Assembly (NCBI GenBank): GCA_022575985.1
Contig: JAKSXM010000040.1
Location: 17,254,001-17,318,000, forward strand
DNA from: Anagrus nilaparvatae
Taxonomy: Eukaryota > Arthropoda > Insecta > Hymenoptera > Mymaridae
Reading direction: 5' to 3'
DNA: 64,000 bases
Shown in pieces: positions 2,930 through 24,959 of this stretch (its first letter is position 1; the number at the start of each line of letters is the position of its first letter). The translations under genes were made by a program, and so were the position numbers. The notes under the pieces were generated by a model, which did no database searches, was not told where the DNA came from, and saw only the letters and a list, made by a program, of their open reading frames with translations.

Positions 2930-3860
2930 TTATTTTACGACAGCTAGTTAACAGTTATAAACTGTCAATTTTTATCTAAATTCGACTTATTAACTAAATT
3001 TGGCAACCTCGAAAACATAAAGTTATAAGATAAAAGTAAGATTTTTTTTTTTTTATCGATTTTTGACAGCTATTTGCCAGCTGCAAACTGTCAATTTTAA
3101 AAATATAACATTATATTTGAATTCAGCTACCTCCAAAAAGTAAAGTAATAAGATAAAAGTATGATTTTTGTTCTTTATCGATTTTTGACAGCTGTGAAAT
3201 GTCAATTTTAAAAGAAAACTTTACATTTGAATTCAGTAACCTCCAAAAAATAGAGTAATAAGATAAAAGTTAAGATTTATTAGTTTCTTATAGACTTTTG
3301 AAAACTATTTGACAGTATTAAACTGCCAATTTTTAAAATCCGACATCGGGTTTGAATTAAGCGACCTCGAAAACATAAAGCAATAAGATAAAAGTAAGAT
3401 TTTAAAGATTTTATCTAATTTCGACAGCTATTTGACAGCTGTCAACTGTCAATTTTGAAAGTCCGACATCGGATTTGAATTGAGCGACCTCAAAAACATA
3501 ATGTATGAAGATAAAAGTAAGATATTTAGAATTTTATCGATTTGTGACAGTTATTTGACAGCTGTCAACTGTCAATTTTAAAAATTTGACATCGGATTTG
3601 AATTCAGCGACCTTGAAAACATAAACCTAGTCATTAAAAATAACAATATAAGCCATTTAAAGCTCTCTAAAAACTTTGCGAATAAGTTAATCTGTGATAG
3701 AGCTTTAAAACTGAAAAGCTTCGTAGCGGCCAAAGAATTGAATTCTGAGCTTTGTGCCCATTACGAGTTTTGCTTAGAAAACCGGTATCTAGAACATATC
3801 AAAAATCCAGACATTTTGACCGAAACCCAATTTCCATAAGATTATTGCGGGGTTCTTTCT
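2930..3860. repeat. TGACAGCT minisatellite and flanking MITE end
   Basis: Roughly six diverged copies of a unit of about 120 bp recur from 2935 to 3630. Each has TTGACAGCTATTTGACAG, CTGTCAATTTT, a GACATCGGATTTGAATTCAG block and GACCTCGAAAACATAAAG. The right flank (3660-3860) carries AAGCTTCGTAGCGGCCAAAG and ends in GCGGGGTTCTTTCTTT, matching the right ends of the related copies at 10512-11369 and 49620-51110. It is best read as a 5'-incomplete copy of that MITE family. Confidence 0.7.
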
Positions 3861-5845
3861 TTCTTTTTGAAATTGGATTGCAAAGACACTTATCTTTCCT
3901 AGGATATCCAACTTCACTATTCAAAATTAGATGTTCACTTATTCAATTCAAAAATACAAAATTAATGAAAACTGTCGCGACGATAATTATATTAAAAATT
4001 ATATAAGAAAACACGTGGAAACAGAATCTAAAATTCTTTTGTCTCTCGTTTATGTTCTCCAATATTCACGACATTTCACTGAATCTAATTATGCTATCAA
4101 TATTTTCTCGGTCACAAATGAACATAAATCTATAGCAGAATTCTTGATCGCGACGTACATTTTCAAAACTTTATCATAACTATAAATTTATTGTACATAT
4201 AAGAATTTAACTATAATGGCCGGCGACGCGTAATTATATTATCAATATAAAAACGTGACCTATATTTAGAAGGGTCAGTCTCCGAATATTGTCCTCGCTG
4301 GTCACTTAATCCCGCGTTGTCGATAGGCTTCTCTCCCTTCTCCTTTTCTTATCTAGTTCTTCGCGGCTTTTACTAAATATCCATGTGTACGTGTGTCGCT
4401 AATGTCACCTATATTTTTAATTGAACTATTACTTAATTTACAAAAATCTCGCAGCTTTTTTCTAAAATTTAAACATTTTATTAAATTTAATATAAACGTA
4501 TTTTAGCGTTTGTAACCACGTTACAAATATTAAAACAAGATATTAAAGAAAATAGTTTTAATTTTCTTTTAAAAATAATTAATAAAAAAGGTAAATAGTT
4601 AAGAAAAAATTTTTCAAAAAATTAATTATAATATTCAAGAATTCGAGAAAAACGATACTTCTAGTTGTTATTACTTTCATGGAAAAAATGAGGTATTACA
4701 TCTAAATTAAAAAAAACAAAATGTACAACAAAATTTTTTGGTGGAAAAATTAAAAAAAAATAATTAAGCTAAAAATAATAATAACAAATATTTCAGACAA
4801 AATAAGACTACAACATTTAGATTAATTCTGTTGCTTTTGTGTAGTTCATTAGAACCTGCAAAGAAATAATTCAATAAGTCAATAGGTTCTAATAAATAAA
4901 TAGAACTTCACAAAGGCAACATAGTTAATTTAATTAATGACGTTTGTATATTTTAGTTTTAATAAGTAAATAGAACTAGGGAAAAGATACTTTAACACTC
5001 CAGTATTACAGGATCCCAGTTTGATACAGAAACTTTTAAATTAAAAGTAACATCTTATTTCAATTATCAATAATAACTAAAATAAATAAAATCTTCGGAT
5101 AGCTCATACAAGTCTCTATAATCAAAATTAATAATTCTGAACCAGATACAGGCAAAAATTATTTCTCTGCTGATTCTAATGGATAAATAGAACTTCATAA
5201 AAGCAACACAACTAATATAAATAATGCAGTTCTTGTTTTGTTTCTGGAACAACTGCTCTCATAATAATAGATATTATTATCAATAAACGAAATAAGATGT
5301 TACTTTTAGCTTAATTATTGTATAAAATTGGAAAACTAAATAGTACGAATCATAAAGTTTGTATTTTATATTCAAGTTTTACTTAATTATCAAAAAATTC
5401 ATTACTAGAGTAGTCTTTGTTCTTACGATGAATGTTCTGGAGTTCAAAAGGAATTAGCTATTACACTATATGAGTCTTGTCGTCTTTAGATACTGATTAC
5501 ATGTTTTCTACAATTAATGAGTTTTTAAACTGCAGAGAATTCATTGGAAGAATAAACACTGCTTCAGCCATGGATTTCATGATACTTAAGTAATACATGA
5601 GACTGTAAATGTAAGGCCAAACTGAATTATATTTTTTAATCCCTTAGTTAAAAGCTTATAACCTAAAAGAAAAAAATTGTTCATTTATTTATTTATTTTT
5701 TATATATAATAAATAAAATAATATTTATATGTATGTATGTATGTAATAATTAGAGTAAAATAGCCAAAAAAAGTCCTGAGATTTCAATATTTAAAGTCAG
5801 GTTCCTCTGAAAGGTTATTCTGAATGAAAAATAACACCACTATAA
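3861..5845. other. AT-rich intergenic DNA with dispersed repeat fragments
   Basis: I see no gene. At 4630-4720 there is a copy of a motif (AAACGATACTTCTAG, then CATGGA and AATGAGGTATTACATC) that recurs near 6560-6640 and 14165-14260. Around 4830-4925 the segments GTTGCTTTTGTGTAGTTC and GAACTTCACAAAGGCAAC form an imperfect inverted pair, with a third similar segment near 5185. Confidence 0.5.
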
Positions 5846-5852
5846 AACTTAA

Positions 5853-5878
5853 GAGGTGCGGAATTTTGTCCCCACTGA
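5853..5878 (+). repeat. Left terminal inverted repeat of the giant MULE
   Basis: 26 bp beginning GAGGTGCGG and ending CCCCACTGA. It pairs perfectly with 24622-24647. Confidence 0.85.
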
Positions 5879-6116
5879 CGAAATCTGACAACGCCACGAA
5901 ATACTTACTGATTTAAAGCGCCGCATGGTGCTAATATTAATAACTTATATATATTTGCAGCAAAATATTTGAAATTTAAAAATATATTTAATGTGTATGC
6001 GCTAAATACGTTAATAAATGCTTTTAAATAAATAAATTATTTAAATGATAGATAAAAAATGTTTTTGTAGTATCCATAAAAAAAGAAATTAGAAAAAAAC
6101 ATTTAAAAATTTTATC

Positions 6117-6122
6117 TTTATT
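6117..6122 (-). terminator. Polyadenylation signal of the MULE gene
   Basis: AATAAA on the minus strand, 112 bp past the TAA stop of the last exon. Confidence 0.6.
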
Positions 6123-6233
6123 ACATAAAGAAATATATTTACAAGCTCCGCTTGTTACATTTATTAAATACTTAAAACAATAATAATATTTTTTAAAATC
6201 TACTTTTACTTTTTAAATATATGCAAACTAAGC

Positions 6234-6346
6234 TTAGAGAAACATGTTTTGAAACTGAACTTGGGAAAAGATATCTAATTGTTCGATGAATTCCTGTATT
6301 GTCGCAGGTTCTTCATGATTTTGTTGAATGTTTGCATGGGGCAATT
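6234..6346 (-). CDS. MULE gene exon 7: last exon
   Basis: Too short for a simple ORF scan. The acceptor is TTTCCAG|AA, and the codon GAA is completed across the intron. It reads LPHANIQQNHEEPATIQ and ends QFQNMFL before TAA at 6234-6236. The frame agreement and the downstream AATAAA at 6117-6122 support it. Confidence 0.75.
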
Positions 6347-9300
6347 CTGGAAAAAAAATTATTTTTAATTATAAGTCGTAACTTTTATTTATCTTATATT
6401 ATTAATATTTCTATTTGAAAGGATTATTTTGAAATATAATGGAATAAAATTGTATATAATGTTATAAACGTCGAATGCATGTTACGAAAAAATTAATGGA
6501 GTTTTTTTATTTAGTAGTGTAAAAAATTTTGAGAAAAAAATTTTCTGAAAATTAAGTATCAAATTTTAGATATCCAGTAAAAACGATAATTCTAGATATT
6601 AGTACTTTTATAGAAATAAATGAGGTCTTACATCCAAATTAAAAAAAAAAAATTAGACTTTCAATAAAATATTACCCTCTTCAGTTTGTTGCATATTTTC
6701 GTCAAAATCAGCATTCTGCATACTTTCAGCATTAAAAGTAGGCTCATCTTCATTTAAAATACTACAAGTTTCCATTTCGTCATTTGCTATAGCGTTATTT
6801 TGTGTGAGATAATAATGAGAAAAATACGCATCTTCTGTGGTCTCCTCTTCTGATATTTCAGTATCACTGTCTGAGTACTCACTACCTGAATCCGAGTCTA
6901 ATGACTCTGCTTCATCTTCATCCGAATCTACCTCAACATATAGAGACTCGTCTATTATCCAATCCTCATGATATCTAGTATCAGCTGCAGATTCTCGCCT
7001 ATTAATTATTATATCACGGTCAAAATTTGGAACTGGGACATCATCTATTGTTTCCGGTACGTAAGCGTTGCGTTCCATATTTAAATTATATCTTTGGCGG
7101 TTATAATTTTCTGCCAAATTCTGACCAGCTAAAATAAATAAAAGAAATAATTTTACTTGAACCCATTTTCTAGAATTACATTTACATACATATATTTACA
7201 TATGGCTTAAGCCCAACAAATAATGCGATATTTACTCCAGTCAAAAAAAAGGGGGGGAGGGGTTGTACTGATTCTGGCCACTACCAGATTTGGTCTATTG
7301 TAGGTTTTTTGGGTCGCTGAACACAAAAATCGGGGTCTTTTCTATGAAAAATCGGAGCTTGACCCTTGAATTGACCAAAACTTGCCCTAAAAGGGGCATT
7401 TTTGCTACATACACTCTAAGTCTTTGAAATTTGGTATATAGGGATTTTTCGGGTCACTGAAAACAAATATTGAGGTATTTTTAATTCAAAATTAGACCTT
7501 CGTCCTTACATTGGCCTAAACTAGCCCTAAAAAGGGCATTTTTGCTACATTCACTCGAAGCCTTTGAAATTCGGTGTAGGGGGGTTTTTTGGGTCGCTGG
7601 CCACGAATATTCAGGTATTTTTTATGCAAAATTATACCTTCACCCTCAAATTGGCCAAAACTACCCCTAAAAATGGCATTTTCGATGTACTCTCTTTAGA
7701 CCTTTAAAATTTGGTATGAGGGGGTTTTTGGGTAACTGAAAACGAATATTGTGGTATTTTTTATAAAAAACTATACCTTCACCCTTAAATAAGCAAAAAC
7801 TACCCTTGAAAAGGTTTAAACTTATTATTAAAATTAACAGAAAATCACAAGGAAGGGCTTGAATGAATTTAGCAAAAATGCCTCTTTTAGGGCTAGTTTG
7901 GGAAAATTTAAGGATAAAGGTCTAATTTCGCATAAAAAATAACTGAATATTCGACCCAAAAAACCCCCGTATGCCAAATTTTTGAGGGCTAGGGAATGTA
8001 GCAAAAATGCCCTTTTTCAGGGAAGTTTGGGCCAATTTAAGGGTCAAGCCCCAATTTCTCATAGAAAAGACCCCGATTTTCGTGTTCAGTTACCCAAAAA
8101 AACCTATACTAGACCAAATCTGGTGTTGGCCAGAAACTATACAACCAAACCCGTATTTTGACTGGTGTAATTTTATTATTTCTAAACGCGATAACAGTTA
8201 AAAAATAATTAGCCATATCTTTTTTTAATCCTGAGACTTATTACTCCTTACCACAGTAGGTGCAACAAAATCTAAAGTTACACCTATTAATCCAAAAATT
8301 ATACAGTTGAAAAAAATAAAGAGTTTCATATTTTACAAAGTACGATAGCTTCAAACCAAAAATTATGCAGCATGTTAGTTCAGCATTCGTTTCCTGTCTT
8401 TTCGTCTGTATGGAACCTAAATACGATTCTTGAGATATAGTAAGATAAATAAATAATTAAACAATTAAACGCAACAAACAAACAAAGGAACAAACAAACA
8501 TACAAACAAACAAACTTGCCAAAAAACTCCATTCGTATTCATATATGTGTATATACAATGTTGAATGCAACATTTAATTTCAAAACTTACCAAATCAGCT
8601 GTCCTTATACTCAGTTCTATAAATACTGTAAAAAATTTATTCTTCAAAAACTGTCGAAGACAATATTATTCTTGGTGCATGAAGTGACGATTTCAGTGAA
8701 GTATAGAACAAGTATTTGCAAAAAGAAATAGGCATTTTTAACAGGGTTTGCAAATACATTTCTGCCTGCGAAATAGTTTATTAAAAATTAGCATTTCATT
8801 ATTAAAATGACAATCCTTATACCAGCGCAACGAAACAAACGACCGAAAAATTGAACGTGAAAATAATATATAATTTATCGCCTGTAAAGTTTCATCTTAA
8901 AATTTTATTTTTAAAGGTCACAAACTAGCTGGAGCATAATCAGTATATAAATACATATTATCAGATTTGTAGAAATGCACGTATCAAAAATTATTATTTT
9001 ATTTTATATCTGCGACTAAATTGAAATTGAAATGTTAAACAGTTTTCAAAAATTTTTTCATAACTTGGACAATAATTTAAAACTTTGAATGCCAATATAA
9101 TTTTTATCGTTGCAAATAATGTATAACTGCATCTCATTAACAAAATTTATTTTCCTTCCCTCGGTCATTACAAGCCCTTGAGTTCGAAAACCTGCTTTTG
9201 GCGCAAGAAACTTTTCTTCGAATTCGATAATAATTATGTAGTATTTTGTTTTCGATCTTATACTTCAAAATTTATAAACCAATAAACAAATAATATAAAT

Positions 9301-12300
9301 AATAATATCTACTCGAATTTCGAAGTTAACAGCAGTGAGATTTTCAAACAAATTTCATACAAATAAAATTTGGAAATAGAAAACTAGAACGATATGCGAA
9401 TTCACAGTTAAATCAAATGCTAAATACTTGTTATAACAAGTAAATTATTCAAGTTTAAAAAACCAAACAAATTCGCTTGTGGGTTAATTTTTTTTAACGC
9501 TGAAGTTAAAGAATATCCCGGATGCCATAATGTATACTCCATACATACATATTAGAGTGCCTTATTTTTGTTTTCGATATTTTTTGGCTCCTCCCATTTT
9601 GTTTCAAATATTTTGGCCAGAAAAACCCCCAACTCCAAGGATTTTGATTTTCAGTTTTTTTAACTAGTTCCGCCAAGCACTTGAAGTTTCCCATTCAAAT
9701 AACATGACAATTTTGAATTTTGAGCTTCCTAATTTTTAACGAGCTTCAAAATCTTTTTTAACACTACAATTTTTTAAATTCAATGTTTCCATTTAAAATA
9801 CATTGTTTTTTATTTGTAATGTATTTTAAATTCGACAATTGCAATTTTAAAAAATTGTTATATGGCTATAAATCATTTTTTACCTGTTGACTAGTGTTCA
9901 AACAAATTTTGAAGCACGTAAAAAAATTAGAAAGCTCGAAATTCAAAATTCCCATGTTATTTAAATGGGAAACTTCAACTGCTTGGCGGCATCAGTTCAA
10001 AAATCGAAAATCAAAATCCTAAGAGCTACACTCAGCGACTGTTGGTATTGTGGCAGCACCAACAGTCGCTGAGTGTAGGGGTTTTTTATGACCCAAATTT
10101 TTTAAAAAATGGGGGGAGCCAAAAAATATAGAAAAAAAAATAAGACACACTCGTATGAAAGTGCATTTATGTTCGTGGAGTAGCAAGAAAGTCAGCGGTT
10201 TATTAGTACACAATAAAATGAACTAAAATTAAAGAACAAACCTTCTATTGCTTCATCCAAATTAAGATCCTTGTTTTTAAATGTAGCGTAAGCCTCTATT
10301 ACCGATAGTGCAGGCCATATTCCATTCTTATAATTATTTAAACTTCTTTCAATTAGTAGATTCCTTGTAACAGTTAATTTGCTAGGTCGGCTTCTGACAT
10401 CCTTTCCTGCGCGTATAGACTGTATATCAAGAATGGCCAAGCTAATTAGTTTTTGAATTCCACCTGTAAATAAGTAATAACTTTTTATGATATGAAGGAC
10501 CAATTTTATTCGCTAAAAAACCCCGCACAAAAGATTAGGATTTTGCCTTTATGTCGAATTGGCCGAATTTTGGATATGTGGTAGATTTTATCTTTTTGAA
10601 CAAAAGTCCAAATGGGCACAAAGCTCGAAAGCTTCAACTTGGCGGGTACGGAGCTTGAAAGCTCCAAAGCTCCACCATGGAAAGATCGCTTTAAAACCTT
10701 TTTTCTTTTACTTGTAAAGTATACCTATATGTCTTTGTGGCCGGTAATTCCAAATCTGATGTCAAATTGACATTATTGATAGTTGGCAGCTGTCAAATAG
10801 CATATTGACAATAGAATACAAATAATATTTATAAACTACAGTTCTTAGCTTCTGACACTAAAAGCAAGTACCAACTATCTGTTTTGCAATTTTAATTCAG
10901 ATTTGAACTCATCGACTATATTAAGTTTCTTGTATTTCTTCTGTTAATTTGACAGCAAATTGACAACTGCCGATTGTCAACTTTGTCATTTTGACATCAT
11001 ATTTGAACTCAGTGACCTCAAAAACATATGGTGAAATAATTATTAAAAGTTTTTTGTATTCTGTTGTCAATTTTACAGCTAGCTGACAGCTTGCCAACTG
11101 TCAATAATGTCAATTTGACATCAGTTTTGGAATTAGCAACCTCAAAAACATAAAGGTATAATTTAAAAATAAAAGAAAAAAGATTTTGAAGCGATCTTGC
11201 CATGGTGGAGATTTCGAGCTTTCAAGCTTCGTGGCCACCAAAGTTGAAACTTTCGAGCTTTGTTCCCATTGAGACTTTTGTTCACAATGATGAAATCTGT
11301 AACATATCCAAAATTCGACAAATTCGACCAAAAGGCAAAATCCTATACTTTTGTGCGGGTTCCTTTAGCTTTGCATGTTATTACTGACGTAGAAATACTG
11401 GTAATACAGGGCGTATTCCAAAAATGCCTGGTAGCCTAGAGTGGTAGGACTCTAGTTTATTGTTTGTCCTATCCAACTCGCCGAATACCGAAAAGTCTTC
11501 GGGTCCAATTTTATCCATCCACTGGTGCATATAGTATTCGTCCGTAAAATCAAGACATGCATAATCGCTCTCGACAAATAAATTTGCATCATATTCATCA
11601 TTACCTTGAAACTCAAGGCATGCATCTAAGTACACTTCGCCTAACACTTGCGGTATTATATGCGGAGGTAGTAACGCCAATCCTTGAATTTTTCTGACAA
11701 ACTTCTTTTTTCGAAGGTCTTGATTTCTCTTACTTTTAGTTATTAGTCTGAACTTAAAGGCATGTTTGTTGACATTCTGAAATTAAATGAAATACATGTA
11801 ACTCGATATGAAAATTCAATTGTATATGAGTATTTTGATACAAGTTTAGGATATTAAATGACACCGGTGATAAAGTTATAGAAAATATTAAATAATAAAT
11901 TTTTTGCACCTTTGGCACTTTTCTAACCGCAAATTTCAATAAAACAAACGACTTTCAAGCAATCAATTAAAGCCTCTGAAAATATGCAATTTTTAATTGC
12001 TTTAGTTATAAATACTACTTGCACAGTGAAAAAAAGAACGGATTGTGGCTAGCGGATTTTTTTTTTTTTTTTGCAAACAATTGCAAATACCTGAAACGTA
12101 AAGAAAATTTAAAAAAGAAACATCGTTTCTTTTCTTTTTCCAAATTTCTTTCAAATTGCATCATACCGATATACGCATAGCCCAATTAACCGGGAAAAAT
12201 TTGTTATTTAATTTTTTTTGCGTTTCAAATCATTTGCAATTGCTTGACGAGATAAAACATTCACCTTGCCACAAGGGAATTTTTTTTTTATATGTATACC

Positions 12301-15300
12301 TTCCCGAATAGAATCTGAAGTATGGGATGATCGGGCTCCGGATCAGCCCATACTTCAGATTCTATTCGGGTTATCTTGGTACTTAGTAAAAGTGCTAACT
12401 TTTTTCTTACGGAGGCCTTCATTGACTGTCTTAGAGTCGTTTTTTTTATTTTCTTGAAAATATACGTAAAGGTAAAAAGGTTGTCAGAAATAAATATTTA
12501 TTTGAGGGAAAAAAAAATTATTTGCCTCAATGCAGTTGTAAGCACGAGTAACTGCAACTCGTAAAGACAACATTTAAAGTAAAAATGTTAACATTTTTTT
12601 CCGTACTCTACACATACTTTTTTATTAACAGAGATAAAAACCCCGGAAATCAGAAAGTAGATGTTTTTTGCAGCGTATAATGAAATATATTTCTATACTA
12701 CGATTATGCCACGTAAAATCTATAACTTAGAAATACTCATAAATATTTATTTATAAAAAAATTCTTTTATTACATGCGTATAATGAAACCAGCATCCAAT
12801 TAATCGAATGCCGGGAAATTCTTCTGCAAGAGAATATCGTATGGCATCCTCATAGTCAGAAATTGCCTCTTCCGGTAAAAAATTACTGAAAATTTTTTGG
12901 AGTTCCTTCCAGATGGCCTTATATGTTTTCTTTTCTTTATTGGGCATGAGTATCCAAATTGCTGGGATGCCCTAAACGAATAAAATTTTAAACATTAGAA
13001 GCAAATTCTTAAAAGTTGATATGTTACAGTTAATAACGGAAGAAACGAATATTATTACTACCTTTCCATTGACATCTACCATAATCGTTAAAAGTTGGTA
13101 TATGTTTTTAATGTTTGGACAAGACTTAAAGGTTGCGTCCACGAATATTTTCTTGAAGTTGCCAATAAGTTTCAGTAACTCTTCAGAATACAGAATTATG
13201 AAAACATCATCCTTAGTATCAGTAATTCCATTTTTTAGGTTTCTCTTTATCCTTTTCTGTGATTTTGCGACATAACCGACTTTTTTGTTTATAAATATAG
13301 TTTTAGTTGGATCACTCTTATCGGTTAATGTTATTTTCTCTTTTTCAGTAGCGAAATCCCGCATTGTATTGAATTTAGAAAAGTTTTTTTCTAAATTTAC
13401 TTTTAATTCGTTGATAGATCTTCTATTTCTTATGCTTCGAGCACATGTTTTGAAGCCTTTTTTTTGCAAGATTTCATACCTAAAAAGAATATGTCTGTTA
13501 TAATACTTTGTGCATTGAACTTCTATACTTAAAAATAAAATCAAAAGTTAAAAGCTTCTTTGTATTCATTTAGAACAGAAGAAGTTTCTCCGAATGTTGG
13601 TACGGCGTAGGGCTCGTAGCGCTAAGTATTAAAGGTGTTCGGTAAAATCTAATCTCAAATATCTCGAAATTTCTCGTTGCGGTATTTTCCCGAAGGTCCC
13701 GAAGGTATTATTTTCGTGATAGGGTTTCCACTCAAAACTATACAAATGCAGTTGTTCGAAATCGTAATTTTTCACTTTGGTTGGACAATTGAAAATGATA
13801 AAGAAAAAACAAGAAAATATTACAATTATATTTTAAATCGTGATGAAACAAAATTTTATTACAAAAAAATATTATATTGTAATAATTGGCTATATTATTC
13901 AAAAGTTAGCATAGGGAATATAAAACCTTGTTAGATTAAAACTAATTGTAAGTATATTAAATGATTTTAAATACACAAAAAAAAAATCGGAAAAAGCGGA
14001 ATTTCACCTGCGGCTAGCGTAATTTTTTTTCTTCGCAAACAATTGCAAATGACTTGAAGCGTAAAGAAAATCCAAAAAAAAAACATTGTTTCAAACAATT
14101 TCTCTAACCTCATCATATCTCGATTAGTGGGAAAAACATTTTTAACAAATAAATAAATTATAACATTCAAGATATAGAGTGAAAACGATACTTCTAGTAT
14201 CAGATATTAGTACTTTCATGGAGTAAAATGAGGTATTACATCCAAATTAAAAAAAAAAAGTTTATCGAAATTTTTAGGTGAAAAAAATTTTGACAACAAA
14301 CTTAGGTCTTCATACCAGAATGGTTGTTAAATATCACCGGTTACAGTCATACACATACATACACACACACATACACCTATATACTTTTTTTTAAAAACGG
14401 TTTTTTAGCTTCCTGAGTAATACAGGAGAGGAGCCAAATTTTTTTGTAAAATGAAGCAGTAATTACAGGCAAGTCAGTTCAACTTGAAATTTTTTGCAAT
14501 TTGTTAAAAAAGGTGTCAAGTTCACAAGCACAGTTATTTTGATTATTATATCAAATTATTTTGATTCCCTAAACCTGAATTATTCTAAGTCCCTTAATCG
14601 ATATTATTCTAAGACCATAAACCTATATTAACCTAAGTCCTTAAGCCCAGATTTTTCAAAGTCTCCTAATTATTCTAAGTCTCATTTAACCCCCCCCCCC
14701 CCTTAAATAGTTCAAATTTGACCCCTCCCCTCAATTTTAAGTTCCGAAGTACCCCCTCCCTATAAAAATGTTCCATATTAATATTTTAAGGACCTTTTTT
14801 TTGTAATTTGATTCAAATTGCCCCCTCAAAAAATTTTCTAGATCCGCCACTGAATGCACAGTGGTTTTTTTTTAACCAATTCTAAATATCATTTAAAATA
14901 GCGCTCATAGCAAAGAAACTTGCCTTAAGCAACAAAAAAAACAGTTTTCAGCTCTTAAAGTCATTATTATTCTTTAACCTTTTAACGAAATTATTCCAAG
15001 TTTGTAATTAGAAATTATTTGAAGTCCCTAAATCAAAATTATTCAAAGTCCCTTAATGAAAATAATTTTAAGTTCTCAATCTAAACTCAAATCATTCTAA
15101 GTCTCTAAATTTAAATAATTCAAAGTTCATTTGCCCCTCCCTCCCAATAATGTGCTTCAAAAACCCCCTGCCTAAAAACATTTGTCGTGTAAAAATTTTC
15201 AATGAAATTAAATATTTACACGAAAAAACACAAATCTTTGATTTTTGTGCCTTTTTTATTACATACTTTAGATTTTACGGCTAATTTACAGCTGAAAAAA

Positions 15301-17690
15301 TGTCGGAATTTGATATTTTACAGCAGCATTTTATTGAGTTATCATAAGGTAAAAAAAAAATTGAAAATTTTTCATAACACTTAGAAATAGAGTGACCTAA
15401 TGGATTAAGTATACAAATTTTTTGTAATTGCTGAAAAAAAAAAGAATTTTGGCCACAAGTTTTTTTTTTGGCTAATGATAACGAGATGTACAATGAAACA
15501 TTTGAAACCTAAGGTTAACGCCGAAATTTCATGTAATTTGCAACATTTCAATTGGATCGGTCATTTGTCTTTGATTTCACCTGACAACAAAAAAGAGCAT
15601 TTACCATTATAAACATAAAATAGGCAATTTTAAACGGCCAAATCTGCTTGCAAACGAAAAATTATAACAAAAACTTGAATTACAAACAACTTTGAAATAA
15701 ATGCTAAAAAATTTGGCTTAAAATAATTAATGTTCACGCTGCTGGCCAAAAACTGAAAATGTTTTAGAAAATACACGATTTTACCCAAATTTATCAGGCC
15801 AAAACATAAACAATAATTATCCGATAGGGCCAAAAATGGCTGGCCATATTTATGAACAAGTGTTTTCACTTATCGCCAAAGGATTTTTTTTTCAAAGCAC
15901 CTTAGCCCAGTTGGCGCTAAAAAATTGGCTTGAAAAATTTTGGAAAAACGTTTATTTTGTCCATAACTTTTTTTCTGCTTATTTTAAACGATTCTAGGTG
16001 GTCTCTAAATGTAAAAAAATTATAATTTATCGATTGGTTACGTTATTCCCCCCCCATTTAGTTCCCCCCCCCACCGCCGTTTTTGCAACTATCGGAAGTT
16101 GCTTTGGTACTGGGCACCTTTCTTAACAAAATTCGAGTTACATCAAGTACCTGCTACTTGCCTGTAATTACTGCTTCAAAATTTTACCTCTTCTCCTGTA
16201 TTAGAGGTCTCAAGACGTGCTTATATGCCAAAAATTCAGAAAACAAAATTTGTCCGAAAACAATGGTTCCTCTTTAAGGAACCAAAATTACCTCAAGATT
16301 TTTTTGTGAAAAAAGTTTTGAAAAAAAATTAAGTGTTAATGACATAATAAACGTAAAAATAATATTTTATTGACAAAAAAAATATTTAAAAAAAATAATA
16401 TTTTGTTTATAAAAATAATATTTTTTTTATAAAAGTAATAATATTTTATTGACAAAAAAAATCAAAAATCAAAATTTCACCTATCACAGTAATAAAAAAT
16501 AATAAAAGAAACTTATTTGTTTTGTTTTATTTTGGGAAAACCAGTATTGCAGAGAACTGGTAATCCCAAAAAAATATGCATAATGTTAACACTTAAATTA
16601 ATAATATTAAGTGCTTATATTGCCAAAAATTCAGAAAACAAAATTTCTCCGAAAACAATGGTTCCTCTGTAAGGAACCAAAATTACCTCAAGATTTTTTG
16701 GTGAAAAAAGTTTTGAAAAAAAATTAAGTGTTAATGACATAATAAACGTAAAAATAATATTTTATTGACAAAAAAAATATTAAAAAAAAAAAATATTTTG
16801 TTTATAAAAATAATATTTTGTTTATAAAAATAATAATATTTTATCGACAAAAAAAATCAAAAAACAAAATTTCACCTATCACAGTAATAAAAAATAATAA
16901 AAGAAACTTATTTGTTTTGTTTTATTTTGGGAAAACCAGTATTGCAGAGAACTGGTAATTCCAAAAAAATATGCATAATGTTAACACTTAAATGAATAAT
17001 ATTATTTACTTACAATGGAATGATTGACATCATTCATAATGTTAAAAATTGTAAATACTTAAAATAGATAAAATGTAGTTAAACGTTAAATACAAGTAAT
17101 TTACACGTGAGGATTAGAATATTAATTAGAGTAGCCGATTCTACAGCAGCACATAGTATTTTTTTATGAAAGTCATGTCTGTTAGACATTTATTGGTATA
17201 GTTTTGTATTTAGTGTATATATTTTAAGATGTAATTACGCCATAATTATCATAAAAGAAGATTATGTGCTGGTGGTATTAATAATAAACAGTAAATTACA
17301 AAAGAAATTGAAAAATTGTACTTACCCATCCTTTACCGAAAAGGCATCAAATGATTGTCGAGGTGGTTTGGATGCTGGACTCTCCATGTGTTTTAAAAAT
17401 CTTTTATATGATCCATTATCCATTAGCTTCCCTAGACACCAATCCGCGTGCGGTTTTTTACCCGGTTCTAAGTGGATAGCTTCTTCTCCATTTTCTAATA
17501 CTTTAGCTACTTTAAAAATAGATCCTCGACACTTTTGACGAGTTTCAGGATCCTCTCTTCTACTGTGCACGCATTTAAATTTAAATTTATTTTCACTGAT
17601 AAGTCTATCGCGTGTATATCGGTACCCTTTGTCATCTGTGAAAGCTAATCCCCATTTGTCAGATTGTTTTTTTATTGCTCCGGTATTCAT
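6234..17690 (-). CDS. Seven-exon MULE transposase gene, apparently intact (718 aa predicted)
   Basis: Exons on the minus strand are 17690-17326, 13479-13062, 12971-12774, 11776-11389, 10463-10242, 7128-6676 and 6346-6234. Every intron starts with GT and ends with AG, and the phases (2, 0, 0, 1, 1, 1) join into one open frame of 2157 nt including the stop. Domains in order are an N-terminal FLYWCH-like Cys/His region (about 1-100), the MULE core with VDATFKSCP (candidate catalytic D236), ISDYEDA (D300), the CWFH signature (C321, H324) and RTNNKLESYH (candidate acidic residue E436), and then a long acidic tail. The product should bind the element's TIRs and catalyse cut-and-paste transposition in the nucleus. 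The start is uncertain: an upstream in-frame ATG at 17723 would add 11 residues. No stop or frameshift is seen, so the gene could be active or recently domesticated. Confidence 0.85.
6676..7128 (-). CDS. MULE gene exon 6: acidic low-complexity tail
   Basis: Encodes residues 531-682. After acceptor TTATTTTAG it reads AGQNLAENYNRQ, then a strongly acidic, serine-rich stretch (for example VEVDSDEDEAESLDSDSG). Function is unknown. Such tails often serve as interaction or activation regions. The donor is GAGG|GTAATA. Confidence 0.8.
7233..8169. mobile_element. Palindromic TA-flanked MITE (family A, copy 1)
   Basis: The ends are TACTCCAGTCAAAA and TTTTGACTGGTGTA (13 of 14 inverted match) at TA dinucleotides, as in Tc1/mariner-type elements. 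The whole body is an imperfect palindrome with about four internal repeats around GGGCATTTTTGCTACAT and TTTTTTGGGTCGCTGA. It lies in intron 5 of the MULE gene. Related copies are at 23705-24078 and, truncated, at about 20160-20475. Confidence 0.75.
8170..9554. other. Intronic AT-rich DNA, no gene seen
   Basis: Part of intron 5 of the MULE gene. It holds a (CAAA)-type microsatellite at about 8470-8514. No coding signal is recognised. Confidence 0.5.
9555..10152. mobile_element. Inverted-repeat MITE (family B) with a hairpin inserted in its right arm
   Basis: The left arm begins GAGTGCCTTATTTTT and the right arm ends AAAAATAAGACACACTC. The arms match for about 150 bp (TTTTTTGGCTCCTCCC against GGGGGGAGCCAAAAAA) and the centre is AT-rich. 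It lies in intron 5 of the MULE gene. A half copy of the same family is at about 19620-19760. Confidence 0.75.
10026..10078. repeat. Perfect 21-bp-stem hairpin insertion
   Basis: 10026-10046 (CTACACTCAGCGACTGTTGGT) pairs exactly with 10058-10078 around an 11-nt loop. The left arm of the same MITE and the related half copy near 19690 read straight through this point (ATCCTTGGA followed by G-rich sequence), so the hairpin was added after the MITE formed. Confidence 0.8.
10242..10463 (-). CDS. MULE gene exon 5: helical C-terminal region
   Basis: Encodes residues 457-531. The acceptor is TTTACAG|GT. The sequence FLRGIQKLISLAILDIQSIR continues the segment after the DDE fold, and ALSVIEAYATFKNKDLNLDE follows. 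The donor is GAAG|GTTTGT. Confidence 0.8.
10512..11369. mobile_element. Inverted-repeat MITE with TGACAGCT core (family C)
   Basis: The left end is GCTAAAAAACCCCGCACAAA and the right end is TTTGTGCGGGTTCCTTTAGC. Arms of about 200 bp contain AAGCTCGAAAGCTTCAACTT and its inverse, and the centre has three or four TGACAGCT repeats. It sits entirely inside intron 4 of the MULE gene, just downstream of exon 4. Confidence 0.8.
11389..11776 (-). CDS. MULE gene exon 4: C-terminal part of DDE domain
   Basis: Encodes residues 328-457. It begins NVNKHAFKFRLITK after acceptor TTTCAG. It carries ALLPPHIIP, the YYMHQWMDKIGPEDFSVF block and RTNNKLESYHSRLPGIFG. The R-x-NN-x-x-E/x-x-H signature is typical of MULE transposases. 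The phase-1 donor C|GTCAGT is chosen because it alone keeps the frame with exon 5. A nearby GTAATA would break it. Confidence 0.85.
11940..12260. repeat. Imperfect inverted repeat in intron 3
   Basis: Near 12070 the sequence GCAAACAATTGCAAATACCTG is inverted as TTGCGTTTCAAATCATTTGC near 12220, enclosing poly-A and poly-T tracts. A similar segment recurs directly at about 14010-14100. It is probably a short MITE. Confidence 0.45.
12303..12370. repeat. Perfect 24-bp-stem hairpin
   Basis: 12303-12326 begins CCCGAATAGAATCTGAAG and is exactly complementary to 12347-12370, with a 20-nt loop. It lies in intron 3 of the MULE gene and is richer in GC than its surroundings. Confidence 0.85.
12774..12971 (-). 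CDS. MULE gene exon 3: second catalytic aspartate and CWFHY motif
   Basis: Encodes residues 262-327, reading GIPAIWILMPNKEKKTYKAI at its start, then ISDYEDA and LIGCWFHYTH. These match the family pattern in which a second Asp sits in a (T/S)DxE motif before a GCxFHY motif. The acceptor is CGTTTAG|GGC and the donor is CAT|GTAATA. Confidence 0.85.
13062..13479 (-). CDS. MULE gene exon 2: first catalytic block
   Basis: Encodes residues 122-261. The acceptor is TTTTTAG|G at 13480, and the joined codon GGG restores the frame. A basic linker (KSQKRIKRNLKNG) leads to FVDATFKSCP and IYQLLTIMVDVNG, the DxxF-type start of the MULE DDE fold. The donor is AAG|GTAGTA. Plus-strand ORFs here are shadows. 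Confidence 0.85.
14417..16205. mobile_element. 1.8-kb element bounded by inverted repeats, in intron 1
   Basis: TAATACAGGAGAGGAGCC and AAGCAGTAATTACAGGCAAG at 14418-14490 recur inverted at about 16125-16204 (CCTGTAATTACTGCTTC, CTTCTCCTGTATTAG). The interior has poly-C tracts near 14690 and 16050, and repeated ATTATTCTAAGTCCCTTAA-like phrases. No ORF is recognised. It is probably a non-autonomous element. Confidence 0.55.
16220..17005. repeat. 395-bp tandem duplication in intron 1
   Basis: The segment starting GCCAAAAATTCAGAAAACAA at about 16227 is repeated from about 16622 with few differences, including the phrases TGGTTCCTCT, AAGGAACC and CCAGTATTGCAGAGAACTGG. It is a recent tandem duplication of AT-rich DNA. 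Confidence 0.85.
17326..17690 (-). CDS. MULE gene exon 1: FLYWCH-like zinc-binding domain
   Basis: Encodes residues 1-122. It contains WGLAFTDDKGYRYTRDR, FKFKCVHSRR, QKCRGSIF and KPHADWC, an aromatic/Cys/His layout like the FLYWCH or WRKY-GCM1 finger that begins many MULE transposases and binds TIR DNA. The donor is GG|GTAAGT at 17325, a consensus site, and the exon ends in phase 2. Confidence 0.8.
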
Positions 17691-17727
17691 TGTTTTAAAG
17701 AAAATAAATAGTATCGAAAACAAATCT

Positions 17728-18962
17728 AATCACGAAAAAATCAAATACGTGCGCTTATCTCGGATAACACCATTAAACTAAAGATTATGCTGCGTATATC
17801 TCCCACTCCGCACTTCTTTTTCAATGGAAATGCAACATTTCCCGATGAAGTCTGGTAGACCAGTTTAGATATATTTTCATATAATTAGATTTTATCTGAC
17901 CTATATAAATATATTTTGGTCACATCAAAAACCACCTTAGATGAAAATTTAATTGTGACTATTTCAAAATAATTGACTTTTTACTAACGTTTATCAATTT
18001 TATGTTTTCTAATAATCCTATTTTTTTATAATTAAATCTTCCATTTATGATGATATAATATACAAGATTTTTTGTTAATAAATGAAATAATAAATATTTT
18101 AAAATCACTTTTATAAAAAAAATTAATAAAAACTAGTAAATTAAATCGTTAGTTTACTTAAGTAACTTAATAATGTATCTTACTGATGTCAGCTGACCAT
18201 CTGAGTGGTTAAATTAGCTGCCGTGGTGGTTTTTGATTTTGCAAAAAAATATTTTTATTGGTCCAGTTAGGTCCAATTCGATCTAAATAGATCTAAATGG
18301 GTCTGCCGAGTTTTTATATTATTTATTCATTGTAATTTAATTTAAATATTTAATTAGATTATATTATATAAGAGCTTTTTTTAATTTTATAAGCGGTAAG
18401 GTACTTTTAAAATGTAAATATAGTTTTTAACTTATCAATTGAACAATTGAATTCAAGGTACTAATTATATAAACAAAGATAAATATTATTTTATCAAAAA
18501 ATGCCAATTTTAAACATATGTTTTAAGTCTCTGCCTAAAAACTCATAACGATGATGCATTCCTTTTTTAAAATCTTTAACTTAAACTTGTATACTTAGCT
18601 AATAGTAATATATCAATTTACAACTGAAAATTAATCCATCGATTAATTTAAGAAACCACCTTTAAAAAATTTGTGTTTTCGGAGAAGAAAAAAATGGTTA
18701 ATACAAAAATGTATTTAAAGCTGAATTTCAGAATAAAAAAATATTGTACAAATAATAATAATAATAATAAGAATAATAATTGTGTGATAGAAGATAATAT
18801 ATTTCTTTATTATTTTAATAAATCTCAGTGTAAAATCTTTTTTTACATAAATAACGGTAAAAAAGTCAATGTTTATCATTATCTTTGAAAAGCAATATTT
18901 TAAAAACTAATTAAAAAAAGGAGACTAGTATAGTATATTTACGGCTCGAGTCCAGAAAAGTA
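17728..18962. other. 5' flank of the MULE gene, AT-rich
   Basis: It should contain the gene's promoter, but no clear TATA or initiator could be assigned. An (AAT)n microsatellite lies at about 18757-18783. No other gene is seen. Confidence 0.4.
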
Positions 18963-19039
18963 AAGAATGGCCCAAATCGCACGTAAATTACCTTCCGAGG
19001 CGAAGCCGAGGATGGTAAACTGCGATTTGGGTCATTCCT
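18963..19039. repeat. GC-rich hairpin repeat (copy 1)
   Basis: AAGAATGGCCCAAATCGCA at the left pairs with TGCGATTTGGGTCATTCCTT at the right. The loop includes CCTTCCGAGGCGAAGCC. A second copy lies at 63513-63576. A plus-strand ORF over this hairpin (18967-19200) looks spurious. Confidence 0.75.
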
Positions 19040-19082
19040 TATTTATGGACAAGGCTCGTATAACATTTTTCTGTGCCTGTGG

Positions 19083-19138
19083 CGAGAAAGCACGTCTTTT
19101 TCGGACGCGTAGCGTCCGGGAAATACGTGCTTTCTCGA
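19083..19138. repeat. Nested hairpin next to the GC-rich repeat
   Basis: CGAGAAAGCACGT pairs with ACGTGCTTTCTCG, and inside it CGGACGC-GTA-GCGTCCG forms a second perfect stem. Confidence 0.8.
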
Positions 19139-19139
19139 C

Positions 19140-19804
19140 GCAGACCAGAAAAAATATTTTTGGGAATTTGGAGCTTGTAAAAAATTTTAAACGCCTATAA
19201 AACTCAATGTCGTAAAAAATTACAATTTTGGCAGCAATTTAAATAAATTAAAATGTTGGTCATTTCGGGTAAAAAATTACCAGTAGGTTAATTGACTATA
19301 GCGCTGAGAGAAACAGTGATAAAAATACGGTTTACGTCTCGGTTTACGTCGTTTGAAAGGTGACACTTACAACAAAAAAAGTAGACCAACCAGAAGTGTT
19401 TTGGTTAATTTTTGAGGTTGTAGCATTTTATTGAAAATTACCGGTAAACCATGTTTTATAAGATTGAGCCAACATGTAAATTTGCGTTTCTAGCCCCAAA
19501 ATTCCCTTTGGAATGAATGCAGGGCTATTTGTATATCCTTACAACATATAAAAGTACGTTTTCCAGTAAAAATTAGCATTTTAAAACGTTTTTTGGCTTT
19601 TGCGAAAATTTTTATAGCAAAAAACTAAAAATTCCCATGTTATTTAAATGGGAAAATTGAGGTGGTTAGAGATACGTGTTTTTGCAAGGCGAAAGCAAAA
19701 TCCTTGGAACTGGGAACTTTTTATGGCCAAAACGTCACAAAAAAACCCGGGGAGCAAAGTTTTTCCACAAAGTCCAAAAATAGGTCCACTAGATGTAATT
19801 AGAT
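19140..19804. other. Half copies of palindromic MITEs
   Basis: 19200-19400 resembles one arm of the palindromes at 19813-22432 and 33441-35744 (ATTTTGGCAGCAATTT, then GACTATAGCG and AAAGGTGACACTTA). 19620-19760 resembles the right arm of the family B MITE (AATTCCCATGTTATTTAAAT, CAAAATCCTTGGA). No gene is seen. Confidence 0.5.
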
Positions 19805-22440
19805 ATGTTTAGTAGGGTTGTTCACAAAAAAAAAAAGTGCGCCAAAAATGTTCTTCCTGAAGTATGTTGAAGTTTAGGTGACAAAATGATTCCATACCAA
19901 TTTTCAGCACATTTGAGAATGATTTAGGGGTCGCACAAACCCAGGGTAGCTCTCAAGTGGTTGGCTAATACCGACAATTAGTGCGAACGACAAAAATTTT
20001 TTTCGAAATACAGTTTTCTATGCTTCCACATATGTTTTCGGTGTCGCTAAACTTGAAAATGAGGTCCTCAGAGTCCGAAAATACCTTAACTCATTAACGC
20101 CGGGGCGGAGAGTTTTGGAAATGAGCAAAAATAAGTATATTCCCTTATAGATAAGTAACAAAAACACCCCTTTTAGGGGCAGTTCTAGCTATTTTAAGGG
20201 TGAAATTTTTATTATTTATGAAAAAGAAGTCAAAATTCTTGATTAGCGACCCAAAAAACCCGTATGGTGCAAATCTGAGTGCTCAAAATGCGAATATGTA
20301 AAAAGAAACCTTTTTGAGGGTAGTTTTTGCAAATTTAAGGGTGAAGCCCCAATTTCTTTACCAAATAACCCCGATTTTCGTATTCAGCGAGCCAAAAAAC
20401 TTATAGTAGAACAAATCTGGTGTTCATCAGTGATAATACAACCAAACCCGTATTTTGACTGGAGTATCACCCCTATCCACCTTTTAAGGGTTATAAATAG
20501 GGCCAAAATGTATGAGATCTCAATGTATATGAAGTTTACTTAAATTTGCATAAAAAATATTATTTTCAAACATTTTTCAATAAAATTGGATACTTTTTTC
20601 ATTGATTTTTCCAAACATTTTCTAATAATGCCTGACCTACCCCTTTCACTCCCGATTTTAGGGTATTTTTAAGAGTTGTAGGTAAAAACTAATGTCAGAT
20701 TCTGAAAGAGCATGAAATTTTATTGTAAGGATGAACTTTTTAGCCACTTATCTATAAGGAAATATACTTATTTTTGCTCATTTCCATAACTCTCCGCCCC
20801 GGCGTTAATGAGTTAATCACCCTTAACAGGGTTTCCACTATTTTTTCGAAGTCAAAATCCCTGACTTTCCCTGACTTTCCAGCCCAAAAATTAGTAAATT
20901 TCCCTGACTTTTTTTTTTGATTTTCCCTGACTTTCCAGACCAAAAGTGTTAAATTTTTAAAAATATTATGTACTCTTTGTTTAAATGCTATTTAAAATTA
21001 AATATATCACAGTGGTCTGGATCACGAAAAAAGTGAACACGTAAAAAAGAAAACACCCCTTTTTTTACCAAAAATTTTTGGTTTTTATAGCGAAAATCGT
21101 ATATATTCGAAACATCTGGATTATAAATTACAATTGATGACTTAAAAATTTAAAAAAAATACCGAAAACTCCTTCCATTTATTCTAACGCGCCTTATTGG
21201 CCGAGAAACGCAGGGCTCAATTCTATAACAATGTTATAAGATAGGGTTTTTAGGCAATTTTCCAAATAACGCTGTCATATTGCCATTCTACCAAAATACT
21301 ACCGTTTGGTCTCATTTTTTTCGTATAAGTTCTACCTTTCAAACGCCGTAAACCGCAATTTTTCATCACCAATTTTCTCATCGCTATAGTTAGTAAATCA
21401 TTTTTGCCAAAAATGACCAAATTTAAAATTGCTGCTAAAATTGTAATTTTTGAAGAAAATAAGTCTTATAGATCTCCAACATTTTGTACTAGTCTCAAGT
21501 TTCGAAAAATTTTTCACTCGTCCATTTTGCTTTATACCTTTTCGAGATATGACTCGACAAAGATAGTGATAAAATATGATATTTTTAAAAAAACCTTAAA
21601 TTAAGACTCTTTTTTTAAATTATCATATCTGCTAAACAAACAATTGAAAAGGAATGAGTAAAAATTTTTTCAAAACTTAGAGCTTAATTGAAATTTATGA
21701 GACCTTTAAGACTCATTATTATCAAAAATTAAAATTTTAACAGCAATTTTAAAATTGGTCATTTTCGGCAAAAAATGGACATTTGATTTTCTAACTATAG
21801 CGATGAAAGAATCGGTGACGAAAAATTGCGGTTTACGGCGTTTGAAAGGTAGAACTTATACGAAAAAAATGAGACCAAATGGTAGTATTTTGGTAGAATG
21901 GCAATATGACAGCGTTATTTGGAAAATTGCCTAAAAACAATATCTTATAACATTGTTATAGAATTGAGCCCTGCGTTTATATACGCGTCAATAAGGCGCG
22001 TTAGAATAAACGGAAAGAGTTTTCGGTATTTATTAAACATTTTTAAGTCATCAATTGTAATTTATAAACCAGATGTTTCGAATATATATGATTTTCGCTA
22101 TAAAATCCAAAAATTTTTGGTAAAAAAAAGGGGTGTTTTCGGTGTTTAAGGGTGATTAAGGTATTTTCGGACTCTAAGGACCTCATTTTCGAGTTTAGCG
22201 ACACCGAAAACATATTAGGAAGCATTGAAAACGTATTTTGAAAAAAATTTTTGCCTTTCGCACTAATGGTCGGTATTAGCCAACCACTTGAGAGCTACCC
22301 TGGGTTTGTGCGACCCCTAAATCGTTCTCAAATGAGCTGAAAATTGGTATGGGATCATTTTGTCACCCAAACTTCAACATACTTCAGGAAGAACATTTTT
22401 GACGCACTTTTTTTTTTTAGTGAACAACCCTAATGTTTAG
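19805..22440. mobile_element. 2.6-kb palindromic hAT-type MITE with perfect 8-bp TSD
   Basis: The ends are TAGGGTTGTTCAC (from 19813) and GTGAACAACCCTA (to 22432, interrupted by a short T/A run). They are flanked by the identical octamer ATGTTTAG at 19805-19812 and 22433-22440. The arms are inverted copies through a centre near 21610. TAGGG-type ends with an 8-bp duplication are typical of hAT elements. The left arm carries a nested TTAA element (20090-20813) that the right arm lacks. No transposase is encoded. Confidence 0.85.
20086..20817. mobile_element. TTAA-targeting MITE nested in the hAT-type palindrome
   Basis: The element 20090-20813 (724 bp) starts CTCATTAACGCCGGGGCGGA and ends with the inverse. 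TTAA is present at both sides (20086-20089 and 20814-20817). The opposite arm of the host palindrome shows the unfilled site near 22156-22159 with a single TTAA. Such targeting is known for piggyBac and Kolobok-type transposases. The interior contains a truncated family A MITE. Confidence 0.85.
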
Positions 22441-23704
22441 ATCTATGTATTTACTTCTATGTAGATATTATATAATGAGATTTCGTCTGGGTTGAATGAG
22501 TGTACAGAATTTACGTGCAAAGTTTTTTGCACGAGTTCTACATGGCTAGGCAGCTTTGCTTAAAATTTTAAGCACTTGTTTAAATCAGCTATAAAAGACT
22601 TAAGGAAAGCTTGAATTTTTTTTCCCTACCCTTTTTTTAACATTAACCACCTATTCCCTCTTGATAACGCAACATCAGCTGCAAACCATAAATTTATCCA
22701 GAAATTTATAAGTAAAAAATAAAGAAATACACCATTGGGTATAACCGCAGGAAATCCTCATTTTTTTTTCCAAATAAATATTAAAAAAAGGGAAGGGAAA
22801 AAAATTTTAGCTTCCTAACGTTTTTTTTATTGATTTAAATAATTGCTTGGAATTTAAAGCAGCTATATTTTTGGCTTATATTTTCAAGCACAGCAGCCTT
22901 ACCGTGTACGCCCAAGAGAGCAAAAAATTATTTACACGTTCACTGTTGCATAGCCAACATGAGTCGACCCAAATCGGTGCAACTTTCAGAGCTAAAAAAC
23001 TTCAGAAATACATTTGAACGTATGCATATATGAGCTAAGGGTCTGAACATTTAATAACTGCAGGGCAAAACTATGACAAATGATTTAATAAGGTGCCCAA
23101 ACTTGCACTATAAGGCAAGCTTTTGCTAACCTGTCCTAAGTGATAGACCTTTAACGCTAAGAAAGTACTATTTGTAGGGTGGTAGGTAAGAAAAATAAAT
23201 TAAGTTCCCAGGTGGCTATAGTGTAGAAACCAGGCCAAATACAACAATATGCGCTTACTTATCCCTTAAATAGCACAACGTTACATTTCTACTATACCGA
23301 TCTGCCCATAGTGAAAACCAGAGGACAAAGTTTTCGCAGATGGGGGAGGGGAACCAATTGGAGCGATTTTTAGGGAAGTTTCATTTTGATCCAAATGAGA
23401 CGTAGTATAAAAAGTCAAGCCAATCGGTACTCTTACTCCTTGAGAAAAATCTGTCCTCTAGTTTTTCACTCTGGGCCAATCGTTATGGGCGAAAATGTAT
23501 GGTTGTGCTATTTAAGGAATAAGTAACTTTGTATTAAAATTTATCCGCTTTCTAGACAAGACAACTTCATTTACGGTTGTATTACGGAGATTGGAACAGT
23601 TTGTAAATAAACATTTTGTTCCGAGTACAGTATACTCAAGTAAAAAGAGGCGGGATTTAGTTCCACTCAGCATGAGATTTGGTAATTCTTGGGTAACCGA
23701 ATAT
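22441..23704. repeat. Two further imperfect inverted repeats, no gene
   Basis: From about 22545 to 22910, phrases such as GAAAGCTTGAATTTTTTTCC and CTACCCTTTTTTTAACATT recur inverted. From about 23250 to 23540, TTACTTATCCCTTAAATAGC and CCATAGTGAAAACCAGAGGA recur inverted. Both look like short MITEs. Boundaries are uncertain. Confidence 0.45.
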
Positions 23705-24078
23705 TAGTCCAGTCAAATCAAGAGGGGGTATATAGTTTTTGGCCACTTCCAGATTTGGTTTACTATAGGTTTTTTGGGTCGCTGAACACAAAAATCGAGG
23801 TCTTCTTTATGAAAATTTTGGGCTTCACGAATAGAAAATACATCAATATTCATGATCAACGACCCAAAAACTTTGTTAGAGCAAATCTTGGAGGGCTAGA
23901 GTGAATGTAACGAAACTACCCCTTTTACCCCTTTTAAGGCTAATTCAAGGTTGAAGCCTCAATTTGTCATACAAATGACCCAAACAATAAAATTCAGCGA
24001 ACAATAAAAAAACTGTAGTAGACCAAATCTGGTGGTGGCTGCTAACTATACATCCAAAACCGTGATTTGAGTGGACTA
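23705..24078. mobile_element. TA-flanked MITE (family A, copy 2)
   Basis: Ends TAGTCCAGTCAAATC and GATTTGAGTGGACTA match inverted in 14 of 15 positions. The interior shares TTTTTTGGGTCGCTGAACAC and CCAAATCTGGTG with the copy at 7233-8169 but is much shorter (374 bp). Confidence 0.75.
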
Positions 24079-24621: not shown

Positions 24622-24647
24622 TCAGTGGGGACAAAATTCCGCACCTC
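24622..24647 (-). repeat. Right terminal inverted repeat of the giant MULE
   Basis: 26 bp beginning TCAGTGGGG and ending CCGCACCTC, followed at once by the AACTTAA duplication. This end lies upstream of the transposase promoter, about 6.9 kb from the start codon. Confidence 0.85.
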
Positions 24648-24959
24648 AACTTAACACAAATATTTCCTGTTTCTTTTTTATTTATGATTTTTAAATTCTT
24701 TTTTAAACACACACAAATAATTTTAACTTACAAAATAATACTATAAGGGCTGTTAAAATTCACGAGATTTTTTCAAAATTATGAATTACTATTTTCTTTT
24801 TTTTTTTTATTTATAATATTGAGATAATATCTTATACTGGGCGAGAGAAGACGCTATATTCTATATATTGAAATGTTTTTTTCTGCTTCTTCTTTTTGCC
24901 ATAACCAATACTCTATACTCCTTTTATAGATACCAGTGTAGAAGAACGCATAATAATTA

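Follow-up and report, generated by a model that had tools for sequence, protein, structure and literature searches.

Complete Mutator-like elements (MULEs) were described, in an arthropod survey that was published in 2026 and covered 4,268 genomes, as 1,875-9,972 bp long with one open reading frame or, in six species, two, and with terminal inverted repeats (TIRs) of 13-1193 bp and catalytic spacings of 60-76 residues (D to D) and 120-135 residues (D to E) (PMC13359780; this and the other papers cited were available in part, and our comparisons apply to those parts). Target-site duplications of 8-11 bp are given for MULEs (PMC6446971), and perfect 7-bp duplications were accepted as MULE in a study of rice (PMC4858842). 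Among insect elements, Muta5 of Aedes aegypti measures 3,496 bp and has 3 predicted exons (PMC5225508), and a review of giant eukaryotic transposons mentions MULEs in the form of Pack-MULEs, which reach 7 kb (PMC6431247). Here we describe a seven-exon MULE transposase gene, and the transposon that carries it, in a 64,000-nucleotide stretch of the Anagrus nilaparvatae genome (Hymenoptera; Mymaridae; contig JAKSXM010000040.1, forward-strand positions 17,254,001 to 17,318,000), hereafter called the window, whose own positions are used for all coordinates of this gene and element. The gene very probably supplies the transposase of a cut-and-paste element of the MULE type that is large, recently active and probably autonomous.

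Like the elements of the arthropod survey, the window element encodes a MULE transposase of the DDE (aspartate, aspartate, glutamate) class, with a TIR length inside the surveyed range and residue spacings that fall inside or on the border of theirs; it differs in that its family measures 18.8-20.4 kb, about twice the upper size of the complete elements in that survey, and in that the gene has seven exons (PMC13359780). With Phantom and other MULE groups it shares the DDE core; some of those groups have a zinc-finger N-terminus, which that of the window protein may resemble, their TIRs vary in length, and their duplications are given as 8-11 bp (PMC6446971). Muta1 and Muta5 resemble it as insect MULEs with TIRs, a few identical copies and, for Muta5, predicted introns, but Muta5 is small and both have 8-9 bp duplications (PMC5225508). 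No arthropod MULE larger than 10 kb was announced in the titles or abstract openings returned by a full-text literature search, which mostly lacked subscription papers.

Gene model of the transposase

The gene was rebuilt independently on the minus strand, and the result was identical in exons, phases and length to the model of an earlier first-pass annotation of the window: seven exons joined into an open frame of 718 codons, with junction phases of 2, 0, 0, 1, 1, 1 and GT...AG at all six introns (Table 1). The protein scored 45.3 bits against PF10551 (MULE), for which the curated cut-off is 27.6, and this score was reached from 33.6 bits once exons 2 and 3 were spliced. The DDE triad, with C-x-x-H between the second D and the E, was found where the annotation had placed it (D236, D300, C321, H324 and, within RTNNKLE, E436); these residues are invariant in a five-protein alignment, and 63 residues separate D from D and 135 separate D from E. 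When aligned with two proteins of the wasp Prorops nasuta, P0001 and P0002, the window protein showed no gap across junctions 2, 3 and 4. The gene model is thus supported by homology, that is, by (i) the score gained on splicing the domain; (ii) the gapless junctions in the Prorops alignments; and (iii) a sister gene of the same structure, described below. On these grounds the seven-exon model was confirmed as correct.

The first-pass annotation had also regarded the fitting phases and the lack of stops as telling. The phases are as it gave them, but as evidence for the gene model phase fit is weak on its own, because between 4 and 20 GT-AG joins per junction, counting the one used, keep the frame open when sites up to 60 nt away are allowed. 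The absence of stops is weak evidence as well, with about half of trials expected to be stop-free after 13 random substitutions. Chance alone often yields frames the length of exon 1 or exon 4: when the element was simulated with a Markov model (n = 300), the longest frame reached 122 amino acids in 84, 133 amino acids in 43 and 180 amino acids in 2.

To judge from its residues, the N-terminus looks like a zinc finger and may resemble the FLYWCH type, with C40, C54, H81 and C85 common to the window and sister proteins. A FLYWCH match was found in Pfam neither with exon 1 nor with the whole protein at E up to 1; exon 1 gave no BLASTP match to one FLYWCH-bearing protein, and no significant fold match spoke for that type.

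Element ends and three near-identical copies

When the flanks on either side of the gene were compared by local alignment, one strong inverted match emerged, which is a pair of perfect 26-bp TIRs; the number of such pairs expected from 100 shuffles was 0. When the 488.7-Mb genome was scanned with the TIR 26-mer at up to 2 mismatches, six sites were identified, compared with none for the reversed control, and these sites form three facing pairs spaced 18.8-20.4 kb apart. In all three, perfect TIRs of 26 bp enclose the transposase gene, and 7-bp direct duplications stand at the TIR edge (AACTTAA, ATAATTG and GATCTTG), with no duplication length beyond 7 matching among those tested up to 15. The three copies align from end to end and lose identity no more than 12 bp from the TIR edge, and nothing in common was found at E 1e-6 when the 5-kb flanks of one copy were compared with those of another. 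The one match in the flank comparison was a 77% inverted pair inside the two flanks of copy C itself, away from the edges. The TIRs, the limits of the element (5853-24647) and the other copies had been missed by the first-pass annotation.

Substitutions were counted at 65 of 18,785 aligned sites between the window copy and the copy on contig C175, at 68 of 18,198 between the window copy and that on C196, and at 89 of 19,515 between the latter two, corresponding to 99.5-99.7% identity. The 718-codon frame is intact in every copy, without indels in the exons. The element has thus reached at least three places in the genome fairly recently; low divergence among copies was read as recent activity in the arthropod survey as well (PMC13359780). 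Although identity this high would also fit a segmental duplication or an assembly artefact, the abrupt loss of identity at the TIR edge, the unrelated flanks and the separate 7-bp duplication of each copy leave that explanation a negligible probability.

The first-pass annotation had offered two readings, a recently active element or a host gene derived from one, and had proposed a search for near-identical copies as a sign of the former. Three full-length copies were found, and together with the TIRs and duplications they favour an active transposon. A domesticated, MULE-derived host gene at a fixed locus would be consistent with the intact multi-exon frame and with the apparent purifying selection between the window gene and its sister, but the gene occurs in three near-identical copies, each between TIRs with duplications and at sites unrelated to one another, and the sister genes lie between TIRs too. 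Domestication in the sense of an immobile, TIR-less locus was therefore rejected, and we regard a domesticated gene as very improbable.

The 3'-terminal 500 bp of the element matched only the three copies (3/3 candidates scored), and exons 2-4 as DNA were found at full length only at the three copies among the best 40 of 2,261 candidates. The 5'-terminal 500 bp matched the three copies and a decayed relic of the 5' end (4/4 candidates scored); this relic, at C161:7039833-7040176, consists of two pieces of 80% and 70% identity and has no transposase within 20 kb. Copy B landed 3.3 kb from an open histone H1 frame of 199 amino acids on C175; among the matches listed for this frame (120 of 2,295), the first relatives with a name are Phymastichus, Eretmocerus and Trichogramma, which points to a parasitoid wasp as the probable host.

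Table 1. Positions of the transposase exons, element ends, further copies, sister elements and nested repeats. Positions without a contig label are those of the window.
Feature	Position	Strand	Length	Remarks
Exon 1	17690-17326	-		Start codon; N-terminus with C40, C54, H81, C85; counterpart in sister protein
Exon 2	13479-13062	-		First half of MULE domain, D236; sister comparison
Exon 3	12971-12774	-		Second half of MULE domain, D300, C321, H324; sister comparison
Exon 4	11776-11389	-		RTNNKLE including catalytic E436; sister comparison
Exon 5	10463-10242	-		Rebuild, alignment, sister comparison
Exon 6	7128-6676	-		Acidic tail; matching exon in sister gene
Exon 7	6346-6234	-		Stop and C-terminal motif PATIQ-FI-LD-FSQ-Q-QN-FL; matching exon in sister gene
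Left target-site duplication	5846-5852		7 bp	AACTTAA, identical to 24648-24654; matching lengths 1, 2 and 7
Left TIR	5853-5878	+	26 bp	Perfect; 3' end of element in gene orientation
Whole transposon	5853-24647	-	18,795 bp	Full-length; two further such copies found in the genome
Right TIR	24622-24647	-	26 bp	Perfect; 5' end of element in gene orientation
Right target-site duplication	24648-24654		7 bp	AACTTAA, identical to the left one
Copy B	C175:5821974-5842324		20,351 bp	Facing TIR pair
Copy C	C196:12531921-12551474		19,554 bp	Facing TIR pair
Sister element	C113:9319765-9341909		22,145 bp	Facing TIR pair
Sister element	C79:17333247-17347276		14,030 bp	Facing TIR pair
MITE-like repeat (miniature inverted-repeat transposable element), intron 3	12023-12288			37 other places, 83-86% (best 40 of 2,261 candidates)
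Palindromic repeat, nearly all of intron 4	10514-11373			14 other near full-length places, 82-85% (best 40 of 1,274 candidates)
Fold-back repeat, arm, 5' part of element	19800-20089			Copies elsewhere mostly 91-95% (best 40 of 15,955 candidates)
Fold-back repeat, main part, 5' part of element	21049-22434			35 other places, 89-94%, by our count (best 40 of 15,955 candidates); 1.3-1.5 kb adjoining it missing from the window copy

Relatives, the sister family and the proposed mode of movement

Among public proteins, the closest found were P0001 and P0002 of Prorops nasuta (Hymenoptera), with 34% and 31% identity over 285 and 275 core columns. These proteins differ from the window protein in their length (452 and 451 amino acids) and in being without the acidic tail in these sequences. 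In a tree that holds only proteins found in the present analysis, the window protein was joined to P0001 and P0002 with support of 99/97, a placement made unsure by the long branch of the window protein. The next relatives were MULE proteins of aphid, adelgid, planthopper and Daphnia. Within the genome, a scan with PF10551 (150 of 341 candidates scored) did not list exon 3 of the window gene, and its count of genes split by introns is therefore too low; three of its eight best loci (L005-L007) resemble the window protein, at 24-29%, and the other five do not. The PF10551 matches also include several open frames of more than 400 amino acids (e.g., L001-L003, L006 and L008) that are distant from the window protein.

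A protein search of the genome, with 62 of 458 candidates scored and 69 matches, detected exon matches in the same order, besides the three copies, at C113:9323201-9338356, C79:17340093-17342466 and C196:16271542-16272868, and weaker ones elsewhere. The C113 gene has seven exons with GT-AG at matching places, phases of 2, 0, 0, 1, 1, 1 and an open frame of 751 amino acids; it was taken from two stretches, with intron 1 incomplete, and its junctions were mostly set from matching sequence, except that exon 2 was delimited on either side, and exon 1 at its end, by the choice that gave the longest frame (of 8 combinations, 2 gave 750-751 amino acids). The window and C113 proteins are identical at 327 of 709 aligned residues (46%), or, for exons 1 to 7 in order, at 52/121, 73/139, 39/66, 69/125, 34/74, 43/147 and 17/37. 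Nonsynonymous divergence (dN) between the two genes is 0.48 and synonymous divergence (dS) about 2.7, which is saturated, such that the ratio of about 0.18 is a rough guide; it points to long-term purifying selection on the gene lineage.

The same comparison bears on the acidic tail, which in exon 6 has 43 D/E vs 7 K/R among 151 residues. The tail had been suggested at first to be a possible new fusion, and this was rejected because exons 6 and 7 have matching exons in the sister gene; the tail therefore predates the divergence of the two families. Doubt had also been raised over whether homologues would include exons 6-7 in the protein; as the sister gene carries both, these exons are genuine. 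The best-kept stretch of the tail between the window and sister genes is the end of exon 7 (PATIQ, FI, LD, FSQ, Q, QN, FL).

The sister gene likewise belongs to an element with facing inverted ends. A TIR-like 3' end was found 1.15 kb past the C113 stop, differing from the window TIR in 5 of 26 letters, and a pattern search with GAGGGGCAGGATTTTGTCCCC gave four genome sites at up to 2 mismatches, compared with none for the reversed control; the sites pair into the two sister elements of Table 1. The sister family is the older one. Its element on C79 shares a contig with the window and lies 15 kb past the right end of the window, about 55 kb from the window element.

Several observations count against a recently active MULE. 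(i) The duplication is 7 bp in all three copies, shorter than MULE duplications are said to be (8-11 bp; PMC6446971). (ii) A clean target-site duplication was found in neither of the two sister copies, the C113 element having only an offset 6-bp match, TGCACA. (iii) The C79 sister copy has a stop in exon 5 (3.7 kb of this copy covered). (iv) Among the three copies the exons diverge no more slowly than the introns (0.28-0.46% vs 0.31-0.48%), and the dN/dS of 0.25-0.50 estimated by NG86 is based on 12 variable codons, 7 with replacement and 5 with silent changes. (v) Close identity among copies is no proof of function: Muta5 of mosquito has three identical copies, yet did not transpose in yeast (PMC5225508). 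In view of the first point, we class the protein with the MULE transposases but treat the element as a non-canonical variant that works like a MULE, since its duplication is 7 bp and not 8-11 bp. With regard to the fourth, the first-pass annotation had looked to a dN/dS well below 1 at a fixed locus as a sign of domestication. With exons no slower than introns and few changes in all, no selection within the family is evident, and what marks the copies is their youth.

The similar pace of exons and introns, the weakness of stop absence as evidence and the many other MULE matches in the genome would also suit a different reading, in which the element is dead or non-autonomous and a further MULE of this genome mobilised it in trans, its intact frame being that of a hitchhiker not yet decayed. 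Against this stand the intact frame in 3/3 copies, the apparent constraint on the gene lineage, and the TIRs, which at up to 2 mismatches occur in the genome only at these three elements, with no shorter derivatives seen. We consider mobilisation in trans unlikely and prefer an autonomous element, whose activity, whose expression and splicing in the animal, and whose movement by its own protein we infer from sequence. By analogy with known MULE transposases, the protein would recognise both 26-bp inverted ends, excise the 19-20 kb that they enclose and reinsert the element elsewhere through a 7-bp staggered cut. The protein has its DDE/C-x-x-H catalytic core, split over exons 2-4, between a zinc-finger-like N-terminus and the acidic tail, and it was the repeat-loaded element in its entirety that spread.

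Nested repeats and other features of the window

Repeats found elsewhere in the genome are nested in introns 3 and 4 and in the 5' part of the element (Table 1), and the palindrome of intron 4 also occurs at many partial places among the best 40 of 1,274 candidates. The nested repeats sit inside stretches aligned across all three copies, and were thus on board before the copies spread; they lie outside the exons, which is why the frame stays intact. A segment of 1.3-1.5 kb adjoining the main part of the fold-back repeat is missing from the window copy, and the copies differ there.

This load raises the question of how the element came by its size, a matter separate from and compatible with its recent activity. 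A MULE of normal size may have grown through nested insertions not long before its amplification: at least three such repeats, of about 2.8 kb by matched stretches, are present in the window copy, and intron 4 would measure about 65 bp without its palindrome. The sister elements, at 14.0 and 22.1 kb, show that large size recurs, and introns 1 and 5 are 3.8 and 3.1 kb long. Taking both sides together, we view recent inflation as possible, though somewhat less probable than its opposite.

We put at even chances a broader proposal, in which these elements would represent an undescribed clade, probably of wasps, of 14-22 kb Mutator-type elements with seven exons and a 7-bp cut. Their introns may serve as safe landing places for repeats, such that an autonomous element could stay mobile as its burden of nested repeats increases, and the tail with its conserved C-terminal motif may be a dedicated part of the transposase (e.g., for chromatin contact or self-restraint). 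Size and structure suggest why such elements get missed. The arthropod survey relied on tblastn matches that covered 80% or more of the DDE domain and took a flank of 5 kb (PMC13359780), and would likely miss a catalytic domain split by introns over exons 2-4 and an element of more than about 10.5 kb. Three intact, near-identical copies and an older sister make this family a good system in which to examine the limits that size and introns place on cut-and-paste transposition, and it could show what role the acidic tail plays and whether a transposon is protected from the effects of insertions by its introns.

The 5' part of the element gave no sign of a second gene: in the first 9.99 kb around the 5' end of copy B, the longest frame upstream of exon 1 was 107 amino acids, and the 10 upstream frames of at least 75 amino acids had no Pfam match over the cut-off (three at E 0.035-0.043), with shorter or spliced genes possible. 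No Rfam match over the gathering score was found in window 5800-24700. A 395-bp tandem pair lies in intron 1 (16217-17004), one unit of which is missing in copy C. To the left of the element, 123-bp tandem repeats at 3003-3650 show similarity to portions of the palindrome in intron 4 (60-76% over 90 nt and, in inverted orientation, 70% over 117 nt). Elsewhere in the window, a 40-bp minisatellite of 36 units with 92% matches occupies 547-1990, and an open frame of 577 amino acids at 58007-59740, which looks like a candidate Penelope-type reverse transcriptase, is accompanied by a facing partial copy of its C-terminus at 57687-58070.

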